Below, piece by piece: positions 40,310 through 59,290 of a DNA stretch of 64,000 nt; within the stretch, counting starts at the first letter, position 1, and each line of letters starts with the position of its first letter. The translations under genes were made by a program, and so were the position numbers. This DNA comes from Chrysophaeum taylorii (lineage: Eukaryota > Sar > Pelagophyceae > Pelagomonadales > Pelagomonadaceae). A model generated the notes under the pieces. That model was given only the letters and a program-made list of their open reading frames with translations. It was not told where the DNA came from and searched no databases. The DNA lies in contig JAQMWT010000344.1 of the NCBI GenBank assembly GCA_029834535.1, positions 310,001 to 374,000 of the forward strand. Reading direction: 5' to 3'.

Positions 40310-40644
40310 TGGGCATTGAAGGTGCAGAGAAATCTGATATTTCTAGCCCTCGTGCCGTCCGTTGAGAACGACATCTATCTTCTTCTGTTTTCAAATCTTC
40401 TGTCCGTTGAGAAAGCGATCTCTTCCTTACCCTTCTACTTCCCTTTCACACAATCCAATAGTTTCGAAATAGTCCTCTGATTTGTGCTCGCGCTCATCAT
40501 CATGGCATAGCGCGTCCCGTAGGTACGTAGGATTATTTGTTAAACTAGGTGTAGTCCTATGTGTCGTCTGTCGTGTGCTGAGTCTAGGGGAACTAGCCTG
40601 TTCCATGAACTTAACCTGCCAGACTCAAACGGTGAGAAGGGATG
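40310..40644 (+). repeat. Dispersed repeat A, left part (split by a TIR element at 40645)
   Basis: Matches repeat B at 58,960-59,240 in the same orientation: GTGCAGAGAAATMYGATATT, CCGTTGAGAACGACATCT, CCCGTAGGTACGTAG, TGTCGTCTGTCGTGTGCTG, GGGGAACTAGCCTGTTCC and AACCTGCCAGACTC occur in the same order. A is interrupted after GGGATG at 40644, and the expected continuation ATGGTTCTTCAGTGACT appears at 51,268. Confidence 0.75.
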
Positions 40645-40735: not shown

Positions 40736-41072
40736 TGTGGCGTAAGGAGAATTTAGGCCTACCTGGCGTGCCTTCGAATCCTGGCTCGCCGCTCGCGTCC
40801 GTGCCCTTGATGGAGTCACTGGACGAGGATGGCCGTTCTCCCGCCACACAACCACAGACAACTTCCGTGCCTGGTCCTCACAACTTGAGGATCGGCTGTT
40901 GCTTTATGATTAAGATATTATCGAAACACAGAAATCAGGGTGACACATGTCACGGAAAAGGGAGGTGGTGTCATAAAGAAAACTGACATCATCATGACGG
41001 AGTAGGGTGCCCCTGATAAGGGGGGGGGGCTAGAAGAGGGGTAAGCCTTAGGATGCGGGAGTTGCCGCCACA
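40736..41072 (-). repeat. 3' LTR of the Ty3 element (337 bp)
   Basis: Starts TGTGGCG and ends CGCCACA (perfect 7-bp terminal inverted repeats), nearly identical to 50859-51194. On the minus strand it is preceded by CCAGGGGAGTCC, a plausible polypurine tract. Confidence 0.93.
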
Positions 41073-42408: not shown

Positions 42409-44066
42409 AAAACAGCACCATCACCATCGTAGACGGGCTGCTGCAAAAGTCCAGCTCGTTTCGGCTCATGCGTACGAGATTTCTGGCAAACTAAGCACTC
42501 AGCAATGAAGACTCCAACTTCGTTCGACACGTGGGGCCACCAAAATTGTTCCTGGATAGCCTGGACAGTACTGTGACGTCCCATATGACCACCGTTAACC
42601 GGAGTGTCATGGTAGAGTCGAATAATGCGCTTGCGCAACGTAGCAGGTGCAACAATCATCGGGTGCAAATCAGCAGAAATGCGGTAAAGAACGTCTTTAA
42701 CGACTTCGTATCGTTCGTTCGCTCGGGAACGTCGCGGCGTCTGACCTTGGGCCATCCGGTAGCGAATATCCTCGCAAGTAGCATCAGATTCTTGCTCACG
42801 TGCGATCACAGCGAGCGTCATATTATCGGGTATCTTATCGATATAATCTTTGTAGGCGGCTGCGTCCTTGAAGATCTGTGGCTCGTCGCGCGCACGGTTC
42901 TTCCGACGTTGTCTCGTAGCGTGAGACGTAGCCAATTTCGTCGGATCCTTTTCAGGGTCTTCGTCTTCGTCTTCCGGCAGTTCGGTTGTAACAAACGACA
43001 TTATGAAGTGGCAGCCGGAAGCGGGAATTCCTCGGTTATCAACAGGTCGGGGAAGCTCTTGGAACACCAAATAAGCGTGATTCAAAGGTTCTCCAAACTC
43101 GTCAGTCTCGGTGACATGATCTATCGGATTGCGAGAGAGACAGTCAGGGATACTCATTCCCGGTGACTTTCCCGGCTTGTAACCAAGTTCAGGGTCAAAG
43201 TTGGCGAGGCGCATCGCCCAACGAGCGAGCTGCCCAGACGAGTGCGTCGCCTTACGTAAAAACGTCAAATTTCGGTGATCGGTCTCAAAAATAGTCCTGT
43301 GCCCTTCGATGTAAGCTCGAAAGTGCTCTAGAGAAAGTATAACTGCCAGCAGCTCTAACCGACGGGGCTCATGATTGCGCATCTCCTTCGGCACAGCTCG
43401 GCTCCAATATTCAATCACTCGTTCTTCTCGAGTCATTCTTCCGGCATCGTCCTTGACTTCGACAATCTGGAAGAGATATGCTCCAAGTCCATCCTTGGAT
43501 GCATCGGATCGGATCTGAAAAGGCAGATCATAATCGGGGTGGTAGACTCCTCTGGAATCAACCAAAGCGTCAATAATCGTATCCCATGCTTTCTGACACT
43601 CGGGCGTCCATTCGAACTTTACACCTTCGAGGCATAATCGTCTTAGCGGTTCCACGATCTTCGAGTAGCCCTTCACATATCGCCGGCAATAATTACACAT
43701 GCCGATGAAAGAGCGTATCTGGGTCTTCGGGGAAGTATTCGGCAAAGTACCTGGAATCGGCATCTTCTGCAGTGCTTCCAGCGTCTTCGGATTCGGCTTC
43801 AAGCCTTCTGGGGTCGAAATATGTCCCAGAAATTCTATATCATCCTTGAGAAGGTGGAACTTCGCGGTTCGACCGCTGTACCCTCTCTGTGCCAAATGAC
43901 ACATAACTTCGATCAAAACTTGTAAATGTCGATGAAGATCGTCCGATCCCATCATAATATCGTCAACAAACGCAACCAAGTCTCGATACATCCAATTCGA
44001 AAGGTCGCTCGCCATTTGCTTGCAGAAAAGAGCTCCAGCCGTCTTTACACCTAGAGGTAATCGCAA
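42324..44066 (-). pseudogene. Ty3 reverse transcriptase (C-terminal half), RNase H and integrase zinc-binding domain
   Basis: A 580-codon frame. It begins RLPLGVKTAGALFCKQM, then FVDDIMMGSD (RT catalytic VDD), the RT thumb (FLGHISTPEGLKPNPKTLEA; IRSFIGMCNYCRRYVKGYSK), RNase H (FQIRSDASKDGLGAYLFQ; FETDHRNLTFLRK) and then the HHCC zinc-binding region of integrase (RLYHDTPVNGGHMGRHST ... ECLVCQKSR). The upstream RT part is in another frame, so a frameshift around 44070-44140 breaks the enzyme. Confidence 0.9.
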
Positions 44067-44143: not shown

Positions 44144-44545
44144 TCAAATATCAATGCATGTCCGCCATCGTCGCATAGCGAGAAAAGCTAAAGCATCATC
44201 TTGCCGAATGTTCGGCCAACTGTCATTGACCAATTGGTCGTTGAGCTGACGTAAGTCAACTGCAGCACGGAACGCGTTTGACGTTCCAATCTCCGCTCCT
44301 TTCTTCGGAAGCATCAACACAGGAAAGCCCCAAGGTGAGTTGGCCGGACGAATGACTCCATCCCGGCACCACTCCCTGATCTGCTTGCGGAGACAATCGA
44401 GCTTCGCAGGCGTCAATCGGTAGGGCGTCATCTTAATCGGTCGCGGATTCGCGTCTTTGAATCGTAGAGACACAGGAGGTGAGTCCACAGGTCTCATAAT
44501 CGGGTCGAAAAAGGCCCAAGAATATTGCACACAGTGACGGAGCAT
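44144..44545 (-). pseudogene. Ty3 reverse transcriptase, N-terminal part, cut by a TGA
   Basis: 133 codons with PYRLTPAKLDCLRKQIREWC, DGVIRPANSPWGFPVLMLPK and FRAAVDLRQLNDQ, ending at CIDI-TGA. Translation beyond the stop continues WGYHNLRLDP, which is the expected next RT block. The TGA stands where the related element at 54.8 kb has Arg (IDIRWWYQ, codon CGC), so it is a nonsense mutation, possibly CGA to TGA. Its ATG overlaps the stop of the upstream ORF as TGATG. Confidence 0.85.
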
Positions 44546-45255
44546 CAGTTTGCCTCGTCATCTAAGTGCGGATTGTCAGGAATTCCCAGCTCCTGAACAA
44601 TCTTGTCAGCTTCTTCCTTCGTAGGAACTTGAACTTTCATGGCTTCGTTATCCTTGACATGCTCAGGAGTTTGAGGCAGCGGCGCACCCTCAGCATCGCG
44701 CGGCGCATCTTTCCATGGCACATCAAACTTTTTCTCATATTTTAGTCTCACTTCCGGGTGGCTTTTGTTGATCCTCTCGCCTTTGACACGAACACTCGGC
44801 TCGTTCTTAATCTTCGGTTCCCGATCTCGCTCAGGATCTGGCGGAACGTCCAAATTTGGTTGTCGGGGGGTGGCAGCAGAAGAAGCATGAGACGTCCCCG
44901 GCTCATCTGTTGCAGGCGGAATCAACGGTACCTCTGGAGGTTTCCATTTGGTGCGATCTTGGAGATCATCAGTCGATACCCATCTTACGACACGTGTGCG
45001 CGTGTTTAACAGCGGAACTTGTACGTGACGAAGGGTGGTTTCGTCAATTTGCAAATAATAACCAAACGGTTGGTCTGCAAGACTCAACGCCGACGGCAAA
45101 GCTTCGCCGCTCAAGTGAAAATCCTTGGTCACAGAGTTGTGCAGATCGAGTACTAATAAGGTCATCGTGTCTGGTGGCACGACGGACGCCAAGTGTTTCA
45201 ACGAGGTCGACCTGGAGAAGCCGGCCCAATCAAAATCAAGGGGCATTGTCAGCAA
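44545..45255 (-). CDS. Ty3 polyprotein segment between methyltransferase-like domain and RT (charged linker)
   Basis: 236 codons in the same frame as the upstream protease/methyltransferase ORF, from which a single TAG (45256-45258) separates it. The first 100 residues are globular-looking (TMTLLVLDLHNSVTKDFHLS; PFGYYLQIDETTLRHVQVPL). The rest is Pro/Glu/Lys-rich and probably unstructured. There is no ATG at the start of the frame (it opens with TTG). It may be the C-terminal part of the methyltransferase region or a tether to RT. Confidence 0.6.
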   Translation of the reverse strand: MLTMPLDFDWAGFSRSTSLKHLASVVPPDTMTLLVLDLHNSVTKDFHLSGEALPSALSLADQPFGYYLQIDETTLRHVQVPLLNTRTRVVRWVSTDDLQDRTKWKPPEVPLIPPATDEPGTSHASSAATPRQPNLDVPPDPERDREPKIKNEPSVRVKGERINKSHPEVRLKYEKKFDVPWKDAPRDAEGAPLPQTPEHVKDNEAMKVQVPTKEEADKIVQELGIPDNPHLDDEAN

Positions 45256-47655
45256 CTACGAAGTCATTTTCAGATTCAGAGATCTGTAATCGGAACGGCG
45301 CGTTCCTACGCGAAGCGGGACACGCGTAACGGTATAAGCTGCGTCTGTCGCGGCTCGTGATGATCCTAAATTGTTCATCTGAAGTAAATGTCGTTCGTTG
45401 GCGTAGCCAAGCGCGGCGGCGAACTCTTGCTGCATATTCTTGCAAGTCTTCGGAACTGCGCGCAAATGGAGCGGATGGCTGGAAACCAACAATCGCACGC
45501 GATAGCTCATCAAACTGGGCGTTATGTCGTAAAAATTGACGACGCACACGTAAGGGTGCAAACGTGCAACGTAAGAAATAATCGAGGCCTCCTGCTCTAT
45601 CAACCACATGAAGAAACCAGCCATCTTGCATAATTTCATCGTCCAGTGGGTAGCGGTGACTCCTTTACCAACACCTCTGGAAGTCAAGTTGCACAGAGCG
45701 GAGTGTACGCAGGGTGGCGACGCGATACACATCGACGACGCCCATTCCGCGTAGGGTAAATAAGATTCGATCAACCGTAAGGTTGTAACATAGCGACCAC
45801 ACAGCGTGTGCTGCACCACAGGAATATTCGGAAAGTTCTTGTGGTGGATCTGGTTGGCGGTGTCCGACGCATCGAGTGCTAGCACGACTCGAAACGACGT
45901 CCCACACATTTCGTTGGCTCGTTGGAGACCTAAAGTACTGCCCTCGGCTCCACTGAACAGCATCACCACCCTGCGATAAGTGATTGGAAGCCATTGAAAC
46001 TTTTCGTATCGGCGGCGGATCTCCGCTTCGGTGATCTCGCGGCACTTCTTTTCGTCTTCTTCCGACCTTCGAGCAAAATCGTCGTCGCCTTCGGGTCGTT
46101 TGAGGGAGGACTTGTCCGCCATAGCGGTCGTAGCGTCCTTCTGCGCCGTGCTCAGCAACATCGGCGGGGGAGACGCGTCGCAATGCGTCAAATGACTAGC
46201 GACGGAAACGGTGAAAGAAAGGTTCCCCTTGTCGTATCCTTCTTCACATTCTTTCGTAAGTTCGTTGATCGTAGAGACGTTCAACTCATCTTCGTACCGA
46301 ACGATATCGCCAATCGCGAGGACTTCGCCTTGAGTGACGACCGTCGGCACTTCTTCCGCGGCAGTCACCGCGACCCGAGCAGCGGACCGGTCGTGCTCTT
46401 CGCAAGAAGAACACATTCCTTCGACAACGCCCAACTGCTCGTTTTCTGCAAACGTAGCGACGAAAACCTGTCCCATTTCCATAGGCTTCGACAAAATGAC
46501 CGGTAGATTGCAAGTTCGACCGGGCTCGATTTGAAGCGTGCGCGCAGCGTATGCCACTACTTCTCGCGCGTCTTCTCCCGGAGCGGGGGAGAATTTGGTC
46601 GTAGCATGTCCCCGCGTAGCTAAGGCTACCGTTCGTTCCGGCGGCGGGCTTCGGAGATCTTTAATCGTGCTCAAACGAGCGTAAACTCGAGTCTTGACCA
46701 GGTCGAGACTCTTCCGAAAAGCATCGTGTTGATGATTGTAAATCGGTACGGTTATCGGGTCTCGATCGTAAATAGATCGAAAGCTCACGATGGGTGCATC
46801 GACTCGTTCATCCTTAACTTTAATCTTCTTGCGCCCATAGACGACTTGGGTTCGATAAAAACAGATCCGATCGTGGGGGTAGTCCACGACGGCTCCGAAA
46901 ACTCGTATATCGCGCCCTCCCAACAGGAACAGATAGTTCGTATCGGCCACAATAGCGACAATGGGGGCGGCGATGTTGTCGGCGAGGGCGACCCGAATCG
47001 CGATCCAACGAAAGATCGTCGTCGTATTCAACCCCGATCCGTACACCTTGCGCTTAATCGGAAGTTCGCCTTCATCGAAAATCAACTTATCTTTGGCCAA
47101 CTTTCTGACCATTTCTCGGCAAATATTAGAAACATCTGCCATTCCATCGACACCGATAGTCGTCGAGAATTTCGGTCCGTCACGATTCCTGTAGATGTGA
47201 CAGGCCATAAACGTAAGAGTACCCGTATCAAAACAACTGAGGGTAACCGAATCATCTTCGATCGTCTTGCCATCTCGCGGCGTCAGCGAAGTGTGAGCAC
47301 ATTGGGCTCTGACTCGCTCGTCGCCGGGGTTGGGCATCGACACCGCGGCTTGAGCTTTCGTATCGTCTAATGTCGGCGCCATCGACGCAGCGCTCGCGGC
47401 AGCCTCTTTATCTGGCGGCTTCCGCTCTTCCTCCATGACAATCTCGGAGGGAATCAGTGCTGGTAGGGGATCCCGATCTTCGTTATTCTCTGAAGCAAAG
47501 GACCTCTCCCAAAACTCATTTATTTCATCTTTCCAGAATGCACCCGTAGATTCATACGTCGTTGGTTGATCATCACCATCATCGGCGATCGGTTCCGTGT
47601 CGGCTGCGGCTTCGAGTCCGCAGCTGAGCGGTTGTTCTGGTGGCTTCTTTAGCAA
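45256..47655 (-). CDS. Ty3 polyprotein segment: retropepsin-like protease and DNA (cytosine-5) methyltransferase-like domain
   Basis: 799 codons, in frame with the acidic ORF upstream (one TGA between) and the linker ORF downstream (one TAG between). Residues about 165-290 form a retropepsin-like fold: IGVDGMADVSNI at the position of the catalytic D-T/S-G (here degenerate, DGM), then FLLGGRDIRVFGAVVDY at the flap-helix end. Residues about 575-760 show C5-methyltransferase motifs in order: VVMLFSGAEGSTLGLQRA (motif I, SAM binding), VVLALDASDTANQIHHKNFP (motif II region), MCIASPPCVHSALC (motif IV with the Pro-Cys nucleophile), and LMSYRVRLLVSSHP as a possible motif VIII. A clear ENV motif VI was not seen. 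If active it would methylate cytosines in DNA. Confidence 0.75.
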   Translation of the reverse strand: MLKKPPEQPLSCGLEAAADTEPIADDGDDQPTTYESTGAFWKDEINEFWERSFASENNEDRDPLPALIPSEIVMEEERKPPDKEAAASAASMAPTLDDTKAQAAVSMPNPGDERVRAQCAHTSLTPRDGKTIEDDSVTLSCFDTGTLTFMACHIYRNRDGPKFSTTIGVDGMADVSNICREMVRKLAKDKLIFDEGELPIKRKVYGSGLNTTTIFRWIAIRVALADNIAAPIVAIVADTNYLFLLGGRDIRVFGAVVDYPHDRICFYRTQVVYGRKKIKVKDERVDAPIVSFRSIYDRDPITVPIYNHQHDAFRKSLDLVKTRVYARLSTIKDLRSPPPERTVALATRGHATTKFSPAPGEDAREVVAYAARTLQIEPGRTCNLPVILSKPMEMGQVFVATFAENEQLGVVEGMCSSCEEHDRSAARVAVTAAEEVPTVVTQGEVLAIGDIVRYEDELNVSTINELTKECEEGYDKGNLSFTVSVASHLTHCDASPPPMLLSTAQKDATTAMADKSSLKRPEGDDDFARRSEEDEKKCREITEAEIRRRYEKFQWLPITYRRVVMLFSGAEGSTLGLQRANEMCGTSFRVVLALDASDTANQIHHKNFPNIPVVQHTLCGRYVTTLRLIESYLPYAEWASSMCIASPPCVHSALCNLTSRGVGKGVTATHWTMKLCKMAGFFMWLIEQEASIISYVARLHPYVCVVNFYDITPSLMSYRVRLLVSSHPLHLRAVPKTCKNMQQEFAAALGYANERHLLQMNNLGSSRAATDAAYTVTRVPLRVGTRRSDYRSLNLKMTS

Positions 47656-47676: not shown

Positions 47677-48336
47677 TCAATCCTGGAGGTTCCACGTCGG
47701 CTCGTCTTCGTCTCCTTCGAGAACGCTGCGAATCTTCTTCTTAAATCTATCCTTTTCTTCCGGCGGCGTGTCCGTGGCTCGATCCGTCGTAACCGAAACC
47801 GTTTCGGGGGGGTCCGCAGGAAAAGATGGCGTCGTCCCCGACGTCAACTCTATCGTAAGATCGTCGTCTGCATCACTCGCTATGGTCATCGTCTCGTCCG
47901 TCGAATGATCACACGAGCTATCACTGCAGAAATCCTTGTCTGGCTCAGAGCCAGTTCGGTCGCCAAAGGTCGTCCCTGGAGGGTCCAAAGAAAAGACGAT
48001 AGCGTCGAGGGCTTCCTCGTCGAAAACAAACGGTTCGTCGTCCGTGGACGACTCGTCAAGTAGCGTTATCGCGGACACTTGTTCACAAGGTGTAGCTTCT
48101 TCATCTTCCGAATCTGAATCGCCTTCCCAGTATCGTGGAGCTTCGAGGTCATCGCTCGAATCTTCGAGTTCATCGCTCGACATCTCCTCATAAATCTGTG
48201 CCAAAGACCGACGACCGGTCAGCACGTCATTGGGTGGCTCGTCCATCGGCGGGCGAGCAAGATCATCGAATACGGCCGCGGCAAGGGCGTCGGCTGCGTC
48301 GTCGGTGCGGGTGTCCGTGTTCGGGTACACCATCAT
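47677..48336 (-). CDS. Ty3 acidic ORF between gag and protease
   Basis: 219 codons, very rich in Asp, Glu and Ser (SSDELEDSSDDLEAPRYWEG). It overlaps the end of gag by 74 nt in the +1 frame and continues in frame, past one TGA (47677-47679), into the protease/methyltransferase ORF. It may be the N-terminal part of pol reached by frameshifting from gag. Unknown fold; probably disordered. Confidence 0.55.
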   Translation of the reverse strand: MMVYPNTDTRTDDAADALAAAVFDDLARPPMDEPPNDVLTGRRSLAQIYEEMSSDELEDSSDDLEAPRYWEGDSDSEDEEATPCEQVSAITLLDESSTDDEPFVFDEEALDAIVFSLDPPGTTFGDRTGSEPDKDFCSDSSCDHSTDETMTIASDADDDLTIELTSGTTPSFPADPPETVSVTTDRATDTPPEEKDRFKKKIRSVLEGDEDEPTWNLQD

Positions 48337-50173
48337 TCCTAATGGTAACTGCTGACCGCAAGGGGTCGTAAACGCGAACGTTGCAGACGAATGTCCCGAG
48401 TCTTCCCGGTAACGACCATCGTCCGAATTTCGATCGCGAGATCTTCGTCGCCGCGGCGGCGTGAATGTCTGCTAGAGCTCCGGCTGTCTTTCCGTCGCGC
48501 GGGCGCGAGCTGCTACGGCACTTGTCGCGGCGTCGGGGGCTCCGGCTATCTCGACGGCCCGGTCGTGTCGAAGACGATCGGCCGTGTCCATCTTTCAAGT
48601 GCTTCACGGAATCCATAACCGTGGTCAACTGCGTGCCTATATTATTGAGTCTGCTCTGAATCTCGTGAGCAGCGCTCGAACCGAGGGTGGCATTGGAACT
48701 GCCGTCGTCACGCGAATGATTATCTTTCTTTTGTCGGCTCTCCCATCGTCCCCGAGAGATGGGCTTTTTGCCGTCTTCGATGTACTTACACATCGCCACA
48801 TAATAGTCGTCGGGCTCGCGGTTGCAATTGACCCGGCTCCCGTGTTCATCCTTTTCGTGGGTCGTCAAGAAAAACCCACAATCCTTGCATGTGCTCTCGA
48901 ACCACTTTTTCGGATTTTCTTCGAGACGCAATGCTTCATATTTCGTGGTTTTATCTTTCGTTCCCGAGGCGAGCGCTCGTCCTCCGCGTCCAGACGGTGG
49001 CTTCTGCGGCTTCCCGCCCGACGGATTCGTTGAATTTCGGCTGTTCTTCTCCGCCATGGCGGTTGCGAAATCGTTCTCGAGCCGAGTAATCAATGACAAC
49101 GTAGACATAAACGTTTTATACGTCGTCGGGTGCCCGCTGCGCATGGTTCGCACGCGGGATTTCAATTCGCTGGACTCCAGTCCACGTATCAAGTAAGAGA
49201 TGATCTCCACGTCGCCGAGATCTCGGTTGGCCACAGAGCAGTACGCCATGGCCTCTTTCTGAAATTTGATGCAATAAGTATGCACGTGGCGTTCCCCAGA
49301 TCGTTGCGAAACGGTCGCTTGGGTCGTGCCTTGCAGTTTTCGTAGCGATTCCTCTGCCGTCATCGGCAATGGGCAACTCTCCCGGAAATATCTCAAAATC
49401 TTGAGGCAGTACTTCTCATTCAGTCGTCGAAATCGTCGTACCACTGAACCATACTCCTCGTCGTCGATATCCCGACGTAAATAAAAAGACGCCGGGTGAT
49501 CGAGATCTTTACACAGGTCTTCATACTTCTTCAAGTGTTCTCGAAAAATCGGTGCGACTGTGTCGCGCAGGCTCGCGAGCAACAGGTACCGCAGCTTCTC
49601 CATGCCAAAATGGTCTTCGGCTAACGTACTCATCACCGCTCCCGCATCCAAATCGAACTGATCCTGATCGCGTCCATCAAGAACCAGTTTAAAAGTTTCG
49701 GTCTTTAATACGGAGGTCGATCGCCGATCCTTGTTGCGATCGTGTTTGGCTAACGCGCTGGCGAACCGATCCGTGAAAGCCATCAAGAACTCTTGGTTGT
49801 CGATTCTTCCGTCGCCATGCGTCTCCTCCTTTTCTTCGTAATCATCGTCTTCATAGCGCGGCTTTCTAGCTTTCGCGCGTGATCGTGTAGTTGGCGGCTC
49901 TTCCTCAGCTCGGGACCCCGGGCTGCTCGCTCGCCTCGATCGACTCGGCGTACGCAACTCGTCTCTTTCTCGTGCCAACAAACTTACTTGATCTTGGAGT
50001 CCATCTGCTCGAGCGTTGGCCCTCCGCACTTGCTCTCGTAATTCTTCTGCCTCCTTCCGCTGTAGCCGCTCCTTTCGATCGTCTTCTTCTTCTATTTGTT
50101 TTAAATGTCGTTCCTGCGCGCGTTCGTTCTCTTCGCGTGACGCCCGCAAATGAGCCTCGTAGAACTCATTCAT
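48263..50173 (-). CDS. Ty3 gag-like protein
   Basis: 636 codons. The N-terminal 100 residues are a highly charged coiled coil (RKERLQRKEAEELREQVRRA). A central helical region follows (GAVMSTLAEDHFGMEKLRYL to LITRLENDFATAMAEKN) with the length and helical character of a retrotransposon capsid domain. Downstream is a Cys/His segment (FESTCKDCGFFLTTHEKDEHG...NC) that could be a variant zinc site and an Arg/Ser-rich nucleic-acid-binding tail. The last 25 codons look out of frame. A 72-codon acidic ORF (50179-50397) in another frame may be its displaced N-terminus. Confidence 0.7.
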   Translation of the reverse strand: MNEFYEAHLRASREENERAQERHLKQIEEEDDRKERLQRKEAEELREQVRRANARADGLQDQVSLLARERDELRTPSRSRRASSPGSRAEEEPPTTRSRAKARKPRYEDDDYEEKEETHGDGRIDNQEFLMAFTDRFASALAKHDRNKDRRSTSVLKTETFKLVLDGRDQDQFDLDAGAVMSTLAEDHFGMEKLRYLLLASLRDTVAPIFREHLKKYEDLCKDLDHPASFYLRRDIDDEEYGSVVRRFRRLNEKYCLKILRYFRESCPLPMTAEESLRKLQGTTQATVSQRSGERHVHTYCIKFQKEAMAYCSVANRDLGDVEIISYLIRGLESSELKSRVRTMRSGHPTTYKTFMSTLSLITRLENDFATAMAEKNSRNSTNPSGGKPQKPPSGRGGRALASGTKDKTTKYEALRLEENPKKWFESTCKDCGFFLTTHEKDEHGSRVNCNREPDDYYVAMCKYIEDGKKPISRGRWESRQKKDNHSRDDGSSNATLGSSAAHEIQSRLNNIGTQLTTVMDSVKHLKDGHGRSSSTRPGRRDSRSPRRRDKCRSSSRPRDGKTAGALADIHAAAATKISRSKFGRWSLPGRLGTFVCNVRVYDPLRSAVTIRNDGVPEHGHPHRRRSRRPCRGRIR

Positions 50174-50858: not shown

Positions 50859-51194
50859 TGTGGCGCAAGGAGAATTTAGGCCTACCTGGCGTGCCTCCGA
50901 ATCCTGGCTCGCCGCTCGCGTCCGTGCCCTTGACGGAGTCACTGGACGAGGAAGGCCGTTCTCTCGCCACACAACCACAAACAACTTCCGTGCCTGGTCC
51001 TCACAACTTGAGGATCAGCTGTTGCTTTATGATTAAGATATTATCGAAACACAGAAATCAGGGTGACACATGTCACGGAAAAGGAAGATGATGTCATAAA
51101 GAAAACTGACATCATCATGACGGAGTAGGGTGCCCCTGATGAGGGGGGGGGCTAGAAGAGGGGTAAGCCTTAGTAGGCGGGAGTTGCCGCCACA
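50859..51194 (-). repeat. 5' LTR of the Ty3 element (336 bp)
   Basis: Direct repeat of 40736-41072 with TGTGGCG...CGCCACA termini. It would contain the promoter and polyadenylation signals of the element. It includes a palindromic CATCATCATGACGG/TGTCATAAAG region shared by both LTRs. Confidence 0.93.
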
Positions 51195-51680: not shown

Positions 51681-54600
51681 TGTGGTGGTTTCACCCGCGG
51701 TTCGGGTTGGGAGGAAGGGTTGTTGAGGCCCCCGGTCCGGCCAGGAGGGGCGGGTATCTGAGAAAACCACTACACCCGCCAAGCCCCTCACTTAAGGTTG
51801 GGACATCATTTATGACAGAAGGCCCCCCTTATGAAGGCGTGACGTAGTCGCCAAAAACTAGGGCTAGGCAAATGAGGTAAGCCCTAAGGAACAGGAGTTT
51901 CCGCCACAGGACTTCTCTGATTTGATAACGAGCTGCTCTCAGCGCGTGGCTCTTTTGCGCTTGGCGCGAGCCGCAGCAGCCTGAGCATTTCGAAACTTGA
52001 CAAGGCCGTACACGCGTTTGATAATGCGCTCAGGTATGCGACTATTATACAACGTGAAACTGGTAATCAGAGCATCAATCTCATGCGGAGAAAAATCGGT
52101 AACACACGGAGTGCACTCTTTGGTTTCGATTTATCAGTGAAACTACAACCATCGACGTCCTTGTACTCGGGCTTGAGCTTGCGATCCTCGAGATGAGATA
52201 CCGGATTACAGTAGGTCGGCTAGTCATCAGGACCGAGATCGAAATAGAAATGCAAAGCAACAAGATCATTCTCGAAATAATAGACCACATAAACCTCAGC
52301 AACATGTATCTTCTTGCGCCGCTTGGAATTCTTACGATCAGGAATACGGAAAAGCGACGAAATTGCTACGCTGGTGATCGTTCCGAAGAGTCTCAGTCGA
52401 CTTAGGGAAAGCGCGATCGATAATCGGAGGAACCAGAACTGGTGTGATCTGCTGAACAGACACCGTCCGACGCTCGGGTGGGTTGCCAAGAGATTCAGTT
52501 TGGTAGGTCGCGGGCGCGTGGTGATAACAAATGGCCCGCGCCACACAGGTCGCAATTTGCTCTCAAGGCGAGGAATATACAACAAGACGTGAGATCCTTC
52601 CGTGTACTCGACATCAACTTGATCAGCACAGTAGGCAAACTTCTGCTTACGCTTAGCCTTCTGGTGAGCTTCAGCAGAAAAGTCTCAGTCATAGCATCAG
52701 CACGAGACTTGGGCAATTGTCGCACGGGCTGACTGAGCAAGGCGTAGTCAGTCGGAAGCATCGGCAGACGGTTCTGACGAAGCATAAACGGTGAAATTTG
52801 AGTACCACGAATGAATTTGCGATTGTAGCAGAAAGCAACATACTTCACAAATGCAGGCCAGTCACTGATATTCCTAGTCTGAAGACAGGGACGAAGAAAA
52901 GTTTTGAGAAAACGGTTGACTCGCTCGGCAGGATTAGCCTAGGCGTCATAAGGAATCGTGGTCTGATATCGCACATTGAAGAGCTTGCAGAAGTCTTCTA
53001 TCAACTTATTGACGAATTCATGATCGTTGTCAGTACGAATCTTTCGTGGAAGATACTCGTAACAAGATGTTCGCGAAAAACGACTCGAGAATAGCATCAG
53101 CCGTCTTTGTATGAAGAACATCAAATATCAAGAAACGCGAAAAAGGATCGAAAAAACGACAATGTGCGTCTCGGGACCGGAACTGGGCAACGGTCCGAAA
53201 AGATCCATACAAAGAACATAACAATCTCCCTCATAAACTGGCTGCTGAAGTAGTCCAGACTTCTTCGGTTCGGGCGTTCGAGCTTTCTGACACACAATAC
53301 GCTGAGCTATAAAGGCTCCAACTTCGTTTGACATGTGAGGCCACCAAAAACTCTCTAAAATCGCCTGAACAGTGCTTTCACGACCCATATGACCACCATT
53401 GACAGTATTGTCGTGGTACAGGCGAATAATGCGGTCGCGCAGCTTCGCAGGTGCAACAATCATACGGTGTAACGCGACAGCAATGCGTTACAGTACATGT
53501 GATTCTTTCGAATCGACTGTTGGCTCCATAACGATGAAGAGAATGGCCTGAGCTACCCGAGCGCATGTATTCTTGCACATTGGATCCTTCTTCCGAGCCT
53601 GGATAATCTCGTCAAGCGCGAGGTTGTCTGGAGTCTTGTCAATATACTCCTGGAACGCAGCAGCATCTTGGAATGGACGTCGTTGAGATTGCGGGCGAAG
53701 TTTTCTGACGCGGGTGCGCTGGAAATAGACAGAACCATAGGATCATCTGGCGGCTCACCTTTTCTCCTCGGGTATGTCAGTCGTAATAAATGACAACATG
53801 ACATGACACCCAAGGAGAGGTGCATCGTCATCCTCAGTGGCCTTAGACAACTCAAAAAAAAACAAATAAGCGCGGTCGAGCTCAGTCTAAATGACATGAT
53901 CAACGGGATTTCGAGAGAGGCAATCAGGTATGCTCATCCCTGGCGACATACCTGCCTTGTAACCAAGTTCGGGATCAAAATTCGCTAGACGCACGGCCCA
54001 TCGAGCGAGCTGACCAGACGCATGCGTGGCGGGGCTCGTTATGTCGCATCTCCTTCGGTACGGCCCGACTCCAAAACTCAATTTCTCGAACCTCGCGACT
54101 AACTTGCCCTTTCTCATCCTTAACTTCGACAGCTTGGAAAAGGTGAGCGCCAAGTCCATCTTTAGACGCGTCCGAATATATTTGAAGCGGCAAATCATAA
54201 TCTGGATTGAACACTCCGCGAAATCGACTAGAGCGGCAAGAATCGTGTCCCAAGCCTTCTGACATTCAGGCGCCCACTCGGAAGGCACACCTTTGAGACA
54301 TAATCGTCTCAGCCGCTCCGCTATCTTCAAGTTATCTTTCACATATCGGCGGCAGTCGTAGCTCATTCCGATGAATGATCGGATCTGAGTCTTGGGTGAA
54401 GTGTAAGGCAACGTCCCTGGTATCGGCATATTCTGCAGTGCCTCCAGCGTCTTAGGATTCGGCTTCATAGGATTCGGCTTCAAACCATCCTGCGTGAAAA
54501 TATGGCACAAAAACCCAATCTCATCCTTAAGGAGATGGAACTTTGACGTTCGATCACTGGACCCTCGCTGAGCTAGGTGACAAAGATTTAAGCTAGGTGA

Positions 54601-55300
54601 CAAAGATTTTCAATCGAAACTAGCAAGTGACTGTGGGGATCATCTGTCCCATCATATTTTCGAGAATGATAGCAATCAAGTCACGTTACATCCATTTTGA
54701 CAGATCACTAGCCATCTACTTGCAAAAGAGAGCTCCAGCTGTCTTCGCTCCTATGGGTAGTCCCAGGATACAATGCGCTCCAGGTGGACTGACCTTTTGA
54801 CTGCGTCCTGCGATTCGGGGTCCAAATGAAGGTCTTGATTTGATACCACCAGCGTATATCGATGGAAGTTCGCCAGCGGCGCTTCGCTATATAAAGCCAA
54901 AGCATCATCCTGTCGCACATTCGGCCAACTGTCTCCAACTTACTGGTCATTGAGCTGTCGCAAATCCACAGCGGCACGAATAGCGATAGACGTTCCAATT
55001 TTAGCTCCCTTCTTGGGGCAGCATACGCACAGGAAATCCCCAAGGCGAGTTCGCAGGGCGAACTACTCCACTTCGACACCTCTCTGTAATCTGCTTGCGT
55101 AAACACTCGAGCTTGGCCAGAGTGAGTCCATACGGCGCCATCTTAATGACTAGGGTTGGCGTTGGCGGCGAATCGACTGGCCTCATGATAGCGTCGAAGA
55201 ATGACCACGCTTATCGAACACAGTGACTCAACGTAAGCTTCGCATCTTCATCCAAGTGCTGGTTATCTGGTATACCAAGTTCCTTCGCGACTTTCACTCC
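51681..55300 (-). mobile_element. Second Ty3/gypsy element, 3' half only, heavily mutated
   Basis: A probable 3' LTR at 51681-51908 (TGTGGTGG...CCGCCACA) is followed by AGGACTTCTCTG, like the purine tract of the first element. Minus-strand coding pieces then follow in pol order: integrase C-terminal (52220-52848), integrase core (52939-53224), zinc-binding (RLYHDNTVNGGHMGRESTVQ, 53128-53463), RNase H (SDASKDGLGAHLFQ, 53975-54265), RT thumb (53887-54603) and RT N-terminal part (54708-55186). Many frameshifts and stops separate them. It is of the same family as the first element but clearly older. The sequence stops near 55,300, just upstream of RT, so gag, protease and any methyltransferase region are missing. 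Confidence 0.88.
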
Positions 55301-56279
55301 TATGATATCGTCATTGTTGCCAATGATGATGATTTACGTATGGAACTACAAAGTGCGCTACTGAAACGCTACGCTGTCGAACAATTTCGACATTGTGCAC
55401 ACCCTCTTGGGTATGTGTATTTGCTGTACAGCTGATGGATCCATTTCTCTCGATGTACAGGTCAAACTCGACTCCTTATTCGATGAGCATCCGAATCTTA
55501 AAAACCACACGCATCTCAGGTATCCCACGTCGCCAGCGGCGACGTATAAATAAGGTTCGCCTTCATCCGACGTCGTAGTCCACATCAACGGGCAATTCGC
55601 TGCTCTCTGGGGTAAGCTCGTCTCTATGCAGGCAGCTTGTCGCCCCGATTTTTCTCGAGTATTATTAGGACGCTGTTCTAGAGGCATGCATTCACCAACT
55701 TACCTACATGTGTAGATGCGACAGAACCTACCGCGCTATTTGGTCACGCCTGAGAACAGAGCCCTGTGCCTTTGGTTTCACCCAGAGGGTAACGCGATTG
55801 AAACACATCGTCCTATTATTTACGCTTCGTCTTCAACTCACGAATCGGAGCTTATTGCTCTAGGCATCTGCGCGATGAAGCTCAGAAAGCTCCTGCTATA
55901 ACGGTCTTTTGTGGTCAACCCTACGTTTTATCTTAACGCAAATCCAGATAAGGACCAAATAGCAGACTACGATGACGACGATAACCCTGTTACTGATGAT
56001 ATGCGCGTCATCAGGAGCTTACCTCTGTTGTCTGATAATGCTGCCGTGGTGCATTCCTCGAACAACCCAGATGGATATTCTCCTAGCAAAGCTCTTCCCC
56101 CCAGGTGGTTTAAGATACGAGAATATGTCGCACTACGGAAGATCCGAGTCCATCATATCCCAGGCAAAATAAATGTTGCTGATGGACTCACCAAACCTCT
56201 TGCAACTGAATCCTCTGCGTTTCGGTCACTGCTGAGCATGCATAACGTCAATCCAGACTCAGACGAGGACCAACAATAA
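55300..56279 (+). pseudogene. Ty1/Copia element fragment: end of RT and RNase H
   Basis: Plus strand. It starts in RT (IVIVANDDDLRMELQSALLK), continues with a CRPDFSRVLLGRCSRGMHSP segment, then IIYASSSTHESELIALGICA of the RNase H, a DNAAVVHSSNNPD block, and ends with VHHIPGKINVADGLTKPLA and the polyprotein stop at 56277-56279. This order is diagnostic of Copia. In-frame stops (for example TAG just before 55716 and TAA near 55899) show it is dead. Gag, protease and integrase are absent; the fragment is joined directly to the truncated second Ty3 element. Confidence 0.82.
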
Positions 56280-56319
56280 CCCTCGCTTGCCATAGTGACG
56301 GCAATGTCGTTAAACTAAC

Positions 56320-56790
56320 CCTCTCCCCTCGGCTCGCACCCATTCGTGCTTACACCCACTCACCACTCTCCTTTCGGCTCGGCGCTCTCACCCCCGCCAA
56401 TCTAAGCTGCTTTGATCAGCGCACATTCGCCAACCTTTGAGTTTACTCCTAAACCCTCTCCCCTATAATCGGCTTGCGTCAACGTCCTTCCTTCCACTCT
56501 CCCCAGCTCTCTTTTCCGCTCGACGCTCTCACCCCCGCCAATCTAAGCTGCTTCAATCGGCGCACGCTCCGCCTTTAACCTTTGAAATTACTCCTAAACC
56601 CTCTTCTTCTAGGCTATCGCTTGGCCGTCCCCCAAAATCGTCTTGCGCCAACGTCCTTCCTTCTACTCACATCAGCTCCCCTTTCCGCTCGACGCTCGGA
56701 CTCCCGCCAATCTAAGCTGCTTGCATTCAGAGCACGCTCCGCCCTTTATCCTTTAAGTATACTCTTAAACCCTCTTCTTCCTTTCACCAC
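56320..56790 (+). repeat. Three tandem ~150-bp units containing the dispersed CCGCCAATCTAAGCTGCTT motif
   Basis: Each unit has CTCTCMCTTTCSGCTCG-type sequence, the motif (56393, 56533, 56703), a GCACGCTCCGCC-like stretch, and CCTTTGAGTTTACTCCTAAACCCTC. The same order is found next to the helicase-fragment units at 1.2 and 28-31 kb, so these are probably pieces of that family. Confidence 0.65.
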
Positions 56791-58959: not shown

Positions 58960-59290
58960 TAGGGGGTGCAGAGAAATACGATATTCCTAGCCCCCATGCT
59001 GTCCGTTGAGAACGACATCTCTTCCTTGCCTTTCTTCTTCCCTTTTCACACATCCGTCGTCTCTGGAATGTGGTCCGAGCTCATCTCATATGACCTATCG
59101 CGCCCCGTAGGTACGTAGTTTTACATGCTAACTTAGGTGTAGTTCTACGTGTCGTCTGTCGTGTGCTGCGGCTAGGGGAACTAGCCTGTTCCCCGAACTC
59201 TAATAACCTGCCAGACTCGCACGGCGTCAGAGGCGGGATGGTTCTTCAGTGACTAAATTACACCGCTGCTGTTGCTGCACTTCAGAAAAA
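58960..59290 (+). repeat. Dispersed repeat B, uninterrupted copy of repeat A
   Basis: Same order of blocks as 40310-40644, and includes the intact junction GGGATGGTTCTTCAGTGAC (59235-59253) that is split in copy A. Could be a long terminal repeat of an element spanning 40.3-59.3 kb, or an independent copy. Confidence 0.7.

Follow-up and report, generated by a model that had tools for sequence, protein, structure and literature searches.

A C5-methyltransferase-type domain with suggested DNMT2 affinity in the Gag-Pol frame of a Ty3/gypsy retrotransposon family

Introduction

What is a cytosine-5 methyltransferase (C5-MTase) doing inside a retrotransposon polyprotein, where did it come from, and on which nucleic acid would it act? 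These questions are raised by a Ty3/gypsy-type long terminal repeat (LTR) retrotransposon on the minus strand of a 64 kb stretch of contig C344 (JAQMWT010000344.1) from the pelagophyte Chrysophaeum taylorii, whose genome assembly has 70.8 Mb in 697 contigs. We call this whole stretch the window; coordinates refer to it unless a locus is named. A sequence-only reading had placed a C5-MTase-like domain between the protease and reverse transcriptase (RT) of the element, and had suggested that it was a further, possibly independent, acquisition through which the element would mark its own DNA or that of the host.

On balance we lean slightly towards the following account. A Ty3/gypsy family, here family A, incorporated a C5-MTase domain between the protease and RT parts of its Gag-Pol frame; descent from a DNMT2-type enzyme is suggested, and methylation of RNA in the replication complex would be its presumed role.

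Identification of the domain

The open reading frame (ORF) in question (45256..47655, minus strand; 799 aa; from the ORF list) holds a spacer, a protease-like region, a linker and the first part of the methyltransferase domain, and contains all the peptides first pointed out: FLLGGRD (residue 243), RRVVMLFSG (561), VVLALDASD (590) and MCIASPPC (642). Its match to PF00145 has an E-value of 0.011 and 15.6 bits, under the cut-off of 22, and covers residues 563-617. This copy is also damaged. In motif I it has an altered glycine that the other 29 of the 30 aligned copies keep, and between motifs VIII and IX the domain is interrupted by an in-frame stop (45256..45258). The limits first proposed for the domain (residues 560-799) need correction: the domain continues beyond residue 799 into ORF 44545-45255, which resumes the same frame after the stop. 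The window copy alone is weak and damaged; relatives settle the identity of the domain.

A protein search of the genome with the 799-aa ORF (56 of 1424 candidates scored) gave 60 matches in 56 places. The match spans all 799 residues in 37 cases; the remainder are partial, and some contain stops. The best 30 loci of the 56 places were fetched (L009-L038, the window's own being L009). Twenty-one were free of stops over a 388-codon stretch and were aligned (alignment A1), and the nine with a stop were left out.

Every one of the 21 stop-free copies is matched by PF00145 at E<=1, the best of them at 1.2e-6, and L010, the copy with its score displayed, reaches 25.7 bits, over the cut-off. The match in that copy spans motif I to about motif III; motifs IV, VI, VIII, IX and X were assigned by eye and from the alignment. 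In the window the domain from motif I to motif VIII lies at 45487..45975 (minus strand; PF00145 and family alignment), with motif I at 45949-45975, the motif II region at 45862-45888, the Pro-Cys motif IV at 45709-45732, the Glu motif VI at 45583-45600 and the Arg-x-Arg motif VIII at 45487-45507. Motifs I, IV, VI and VIII occur in the correct order, and 38 residues separate the Cys from the Glu. M.HhaI has the same spacing. In an HH-suite comparison with ten phage C5-MTases, family A aligned across motifs I-IV, up to the Pro-Cys loop (P 3.2e-5, probability 72.7%). Scored with a mixed C5-MTase profile, the 21 copies reach 22.5 bits at the median, and none of 250 shuffles exceeds -0.4. We conclude that family A carries a C5-MTase-type domain between the protease-like region and RT, as had been proposed for the window copy; the proposed Pfam check succeeded in the relatives, with L010 above the cut-off, and fell short in the window ORF itself.

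Several results weigh against this identification or leave it less specific. The C-terminal part is weak: in a target-recognition-like stretch at 45120..45486 (minus strand), candidate motifs IX (45232-45285) and X (45166-45192) were picked by eye, and their score was reached by 18 of 1000 shuffles with a profile of four DNMT2 C-termini, by 40 of 1000 with seven phage C-termini and by 353 of 1000 with 19 bacterial ones. A search of the PDB with the A1 profile gave no methyltransferase at E<=10, and a single-sequence AlphaFold model was uninformative (pLDDT 32). In a VIA-align fold search Z reached 9.7 for C5-MTases and 9.0 for other Rossmann methyltransferases, so C5 enzymes are not singled out. 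DUF4964 was listed for all 21 copies at E<=1 (best 0.0027); in the displayed copy this match lies after the domain and is under the cut-off. Beyond motif IV, two of the alignments with bacterial enzymes were out of register, and for the model that was used both ends were trimmed, which favours the C5-MTase register. Weak PDB matches of the A1 profile to GGA1 look like chance.

The motif matches could in principle be chance, or belong to a different Rossmann enzyme. The sub-threshold Pfam score of the window copy by itself would fit such a view, as would the missing PDB methyltransferase and a search of a protein database of 5.8 billion clusters, which gave no match to A1 at E<=1 among 8000 scored proteins. 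We consider it highly improbable, given that PF00145 is found in every stop-free copy, that none of 250 shuffles comes near the family and that the motif order is correct.

Conservation and selection

The 30 aligned copies are the best-scoring ones and are thus biased toward intact copies. In all 30 the motif IV Cys, the motif VI Glu and both Arg of motif VIII are invariant; over motifs I-VIII there are no stops, and a frame-breaking gap occurs in one. The ratio of nonsynonymous to synonymous change (dN/dS) is 0.174 over motifs I-VIII (bootstrap 0.119-0.263) and 0.181 over RT (0.110-0.304); it is 0.322 in the protease-like region, 0.311 in the linker leading to the domain and 0.549 in the spacer. 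The domain is kept by purifying selection about as strong as that on RT. From its sequence the window copy has probably lost methyltransferase function, while other copies look intact.

Two values tell against an enzymatic interpretation. The stretch from motif VIII to motif X, at 0.392, is under weaker constraint than motifs I-VIII, and the linker between the domain and RT, which has no known function, is at 0.183 about as constrained as the domain. Because of that linker, constraint alone does not show enzyme activity, and selection might instead maintain the domain for binding nucleic acid or for a structural role in the polyprotein. Motif VI is EQ and not EN, motif VIII is without its usual Gln, and the weak motifs IX-X point the same way. 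We think this non-catalytic role unlikely: it leaves the invariant catalytic Cys and Glu to be accounted for, and the lowest dN/dS among 37 windows of 60 codons, 0.09, falls on motifs VI-VIII.

A search of the genome with the RT region found at least 75 places at 84-100% identity. Three copies picked by RT alone, on contigs absent from the first list (L132, L133 and L134), all carry the domain. All three have a frame break at the same place shortly before the methyltransferase, and further breaks elsewhere; the shared break might stem from a deletion in one subfamily, from a slippery site or from an error of assembly.

Class affinity

The host has C5-MTases of its own for comparison. A PF00145 search of the genome listed 57 matches, of which the two best are host genes; eight of the other 55 were opened. 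One host gene (L001, 1498-2577) is a DNMT2, with an E-value of 3.9e-39 to human DNMT2. It adjoins a chlorophyll-binding gene (PF00504), by which the host is probably photosynthetic. The other (L002, 1006-3537) is a DNMT5, with an E-value of 3e-143 to PDB entry 7r76, whose molecule name is DNA repair protein Rad8 and which we take to be Cryptococcus DNMT5.

Family A scores highest with DNMT2. Median scores against class profiles are 24.2 bits for DNMT2, 18.5 for phage enzymes, 3.7 for bacterial enzymes and -2.2 for the host DNMT5; the best shuffles (250 for each profile) reach 2.7 to 4.0, and 3.5 against the DNMT2 profile. When single references are scored, the five DNMT2 rows rank 1, 2, 4, 6 and 7 of 26, and human DNMT1 (2.3) and DNMT3A (-0.7) are near or below the shuffles (best 4.0). 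Sequence searches of the whole PDB returned DNMT2 chains as the only methyltransferase matches, and these were not significant (E 1.4-1.6); the same was true of an intact family A copy (E 0.076-1.7).

The maximum-likelihood trees sampled family A by three of its 21 rows, DNMT2 by five or four, the bacterial enzymes by eight of 19 and the phage enzymes by ten or seven. Family A joins DNMT2 with support of 92/95 in a 29-row tree and of 100/99.9 in a 26-row tree, from which family B (described below) and three long phage rows were left out. In the latter it adjoins the host DNMT2 (86/94.7).

These trees should be read with caution, for several reasons that count against DNMT2 descent. At 5.1 changes per site the family A branch is very long, and the program issued a warning of long-branch attraction. 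When the host DNMT2 is removed, the grouping of A with DNMT2 is supported at just 72/51.8. In the approximately unbiased (AU) test of six alternative placements, only that of A with bacteria was rejected at 0.05 (p 0.025); the other p values were 0.188 for DNMT1, 0.060 for DNMT3A, 0.054 for DNMT5, and 0.081 and 0.060 for two phage placements. The CFT motif of the DNMT2 target-recognition region was not seen in the translations by eye, with no dedicated search.

By profile, single-sequence and tree scores, the family A domain appears closest to DNMT2, the tRNA C38 methyltransferase, over DNMT1, DNMT3A, DNMT5 and the bacterial enzymes. The evidence is suggestive, not proof; DNMT2 ancestry is the leading reading and, on these comparisons, an unproven one. 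The donor of a DNMT2-type enzyme is possibly the host's own gene. Because DNMT2 is the closest class, the acquisition is likely to be separate from the published DNMT3 cases, which upholds that part of the earlier suggestion with a reservation: joining with DNMT3A is disfavoured only marginally by the AU value above.

A second family

The eight opened PF00145 places other than the host genes (L003-L008, L040 and L041) all align with one another and form a second retrotransposon family, family B. In L040 (4097-9952) the order is a Gag-like ORF, a protease-like LIDGGAS, the methyltransferase (PF00145, 1.1e-7), a weak integrase (rve, 0.0061, upstream of RT and below the cut-off) and a copia-type RT (RVT_2, 1.6e-38). 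No LTR pair was found in two fetched stretches of 10.0 and 9.0 kb, which possibly lack both ends of the element. The Pro-Cys and Glu-Asn motifs are kept in all eight copies, and motif I is degenerate. Searching the genome with the family B domain gave 152 matches, with some copies counted in more than one piece. In the eight copies, all found by PF00145, motifs I-VIII have a dN/dS of 0.153, the protease-like region one of 0.128 and the part after the domain one of 0.402; these copies are much more diverged than those of family A (proportion of synonymous differences, pS, 0.42). Profile scores are 54.5 bits for phage enzymes, 37.8 for bacterial ones and 9.2 for DNMT2, and tblastn against phages gave phage C5-MTases from 2e-6. 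Family B is a high-copy family, copia by its RT, and carries a prokaryote-type C5-MTase between the protease-like region and the integrase.

In this one genome, then, a Ty3 and a copia family each have a C5-MTase immediately following the protease-like region, and the two were probably captured separately. A single capture with later transfer from one element to the other would fit the shared position, and a single clade of A and B was not rejected (AU p 0.124). We judge such a transfer improbable, since an HH-suite comparison of the two domains found no relation (probability 0.9%) and their affinities are opposite, A to DNMT2 and B to phage and bacterial enzymes.

DNA or RNA as the substrate

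Methylation of the element's own DNA could leave a CpG footprint, and none was seen in the 30 family A copies by either measure used. CpG observed/expected is 1.34 in these copies and 1.37 in positions 1-40000 of the window. C-to-T rates are 0.027 at CpA, 0.0348 at CpC, 0.0403 at CpG and 0.0486 at CpT, so that CpG falls between CpC and CpT. The missing footprint is weak evidence against DNA marking, because the window and the host loci are CpG-rich too despite the DNMT5. In family B CpG observed/expected is lower (1.05 in eight loci), a value inseparable from age and host methylation.

A strand bias was observed outside CpG. Over L009-L038, C-to-T is 0.043-0.046 on the strand complementary to coding and 0.025-0.030 on the other. 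Either cDNA deamination or codon constraint could account for this.

The domain may, whatever its ancestry, methylate the element's own cDNA before or after integration. This has a precedent in the de novo CG methylation ascribed to retrotransposon DNMTs by de Mendoza et al. in 2018 (PMC5890265), and the DNMT5 of the host means that 5-methylcytosine may exist in the genome. We hold it to be a real but doubtful possibility, for the CpG values above and because the nearest class is DNMT2. The proposed marking of element or host DNA stays unsupported so far.

For an enzyme resembling DNMT2, RNA would be the first substrate to expect. With no CpG footprint and an affinity to DNMT2, RNA, and above all tRNA, is the likelier substrate. 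LTR elements prime reverse transcription on tRNA, and a tRNA methyltransferase in the particle would therefore make sense. The methyltransferase would be made as part of the polyprotein, then released or kept in the particle, and packaged with RT. It could act there on cytosines of the replication-complex RNA (primer tRNA, element RNA or an RNA:DNA hybrid), and the methylation might protect that RNA from cleavage or small-RNA targeting, or might aid priming.

A narrower version, in which the element captured a host DNMT2-type tRNA methyltransferase that acts on RNA in its own particle (the primer tRNA or the primer:template hybrid) and so avoids cutting or silencing fragments, is rather unlikely as a whole and is put forward tentatively. 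One result speaks against a primer role: a strict pattern for a tRNA fitting the bases after the 5' LTR had no match in the genome.

Architecture of the element and other features of the window

The window element lies inside LTRs and has RT, RNase H and integrase downstream of the domain, as had been described. A 5' LTR at 50859..51194 pairs with a 3' LTR at 40736..41072 (both minus strand; 323/336 aligned bases identical, 96%), with the ends TGTGGC...GCCACA. No matching target-site duplication was seen flanking the pair. All further parts of the element are on the minus strand. A Gag-like ORF of 636 aa (48263..50173) is named by its place and look only, with no significant Pfam match, and is followed by an acidic Gag/Pol spacer ORF of 219 aa (47677..48336; from the ORF list), also with no Pfam match. 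The retropepsin-like region (VDGMADVS ... FLLGGRDIRVFGAVVDYP) has the approximate limits 46850..47160. It was recognized from motifs by eye; no retropepsin match was listed by Pfam at E<=10 for the window element, with filters that remove most matches above E ~0.1, and 'protease' refers to these motifs alone.

Downstream of the domain, the N-terminal part of RT is a separate ORF in the window copy (44144..44545) that aligns to the RT of a relative (L020). It is followed by the PF00078 RT match (43818..44063; E 1.3e-7), the RNase H of RT (PF17917, 43197..43535; E 4.4e-24), the H2C2 zinc-binding domain of the integrase (PF17921, 42471..42647; E 1.4e-16) and the integrase core (rve, PF00665, 42139..42351; E 1.4e-5, 25.7 bits, under its cut-off of 32.6). 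The order RT, RNase H, integrase is that of Ty3/gypsy, as judged from Pfam with rve below its cut-off.

Other repeats lie near the element. A second, degenerate Ty3 element occupies 52220-55300 on the minus strand, its RT 43-49% identical to the window family, and an ORF at 55911-56279 on the plus strand resembles, by eye, a copia RNase H end (KIRVHHIPGKINVADGLTKPL). There is a 110-nt direct repeat at 40502-40611 and 59090-59199 (85% identical), with one copy just outside the left LTR. A 95-nt repeat occurs three times in 56318-56722, the other two copies being 62% and 86% identical to the reference copy.

Comparison with known systems

Retrotransposon-borne C5-MTases are known: PMC5890265 describes KnitGypsy-Dnmt3 in a charophyte, and SymbioDIRS-Dnmt3 and SymbioLINE-Dnmt in dinoflagellates. 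Like family A, KnitGypsy-Dnmt3 of Klebsormidium nitens is a multicopy LTR Gypsy element whose Pol polyprotein frame includes a C5-MTase, with key residues conserved and with purifying selection; it differs in its DNMT3-related enzyme, its green-lineage host and, by the figure legend, its DIRS-like repeat structure (PMC5890265), whereas family A has DNMT2 as its nearest class and an ordinary LTR pair. The Symbiodinium elements share with families A and B a high copy number, purifying selection and several captures in one genome, but are DIRS and LINE elements with DNMT3 or an orphan DNMT, where here a Ty3/gypsy element has a DNMT2-like and a copia element a prokaryote-type enzyme (PMC5890265).

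The tRNA(Asp) C38 methyltransferase DNMT2/TRDMT1 gives family A its best profile and single-sequence scores and its best tree placement. Unlike it, family A lies inside a Gag-Pol polyprotein, shows no CFT motif by eye and has a very long branch. A 2025 survey finds DNMT2 and DNMT6 consistently without companion domains (PMC12344493). The DIRS Dam elements (PMC5890265) and Ectocarpus Sola1 (PMC12477816) are likewise mobile with a nucleic-acid methyltransferase, but of another enzyme class and transposon type; this comparison class consists of adenine or N4-cytosine methyltransferases.

Some reports bear on novelty. A 2019 hypothesis paper mentions DAM- and DCM-encoding Ty3/Gypsy and DIRS elements in stramenopiles among others, with DAM and DCM undistinguished there (PMC6338049), so a stramenopile-like host need not be new. 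PMC12344493 attributes a DNMT3 to an LTR Copia element with reference to the 2018 paper, in which Gypsy is named (PMC5890265). The retrieved part of a microeukaryote DNMT survey treats a retrotransposon-borne enzyme only by citing that 2018 paper (PMC9998398). In the open-licence literature we found no report of a DNMT2-type C5-MTase in a retrotransposon, of a copia element with a prokaryote-type C5-MTase, or of Ty3 and copia families with C5-MTases in one genome.

Searches outside the genome were also negative for family A. In the protein database of 5.8 billion clusters, the window ORF had no relative at E<=1e-3 among 7996 scored candidates, and residues 1030-1540 of the L020 frame, with 6846 candidates, had none at E<=0.1. 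Short peptide patterns found nothing in IMG/VR for family A or B, nor for a phage query, and tblastn against phages gave no match to family A. Donors and relatives outside the genome were therefore not identified in these searches, which took in no alga genomes.

Significance

A retrotransposon-borne C5-MTase is itself known; the DNMT2-like type and the pairing of Ty3 and copia families in one genome would be what is new here. Detailed descriptions of such captures come so far from two lineages and concern DNMT3 or orphan enzymes, and this genome adds two more. Both of these follow the protease-like region, probably have different sources and are under purifying selection, which points to a repeated advantage and not an accident. 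The genome is small (70.8 Mb), with many intact-looking copies and a DNMT5 and a DNMT2 of its own for comparison. If the Ty3 domain is DNMT2-like, the question is no longer one of marking DNA but of modifying RNA or tRNA during reverse transcription. A capture of the host DNMT2, if true, would be the first case of an RNA-class DNMT as a polyprotein domain, beside an independent copia capture of a prokaryote-type C5-MTase.

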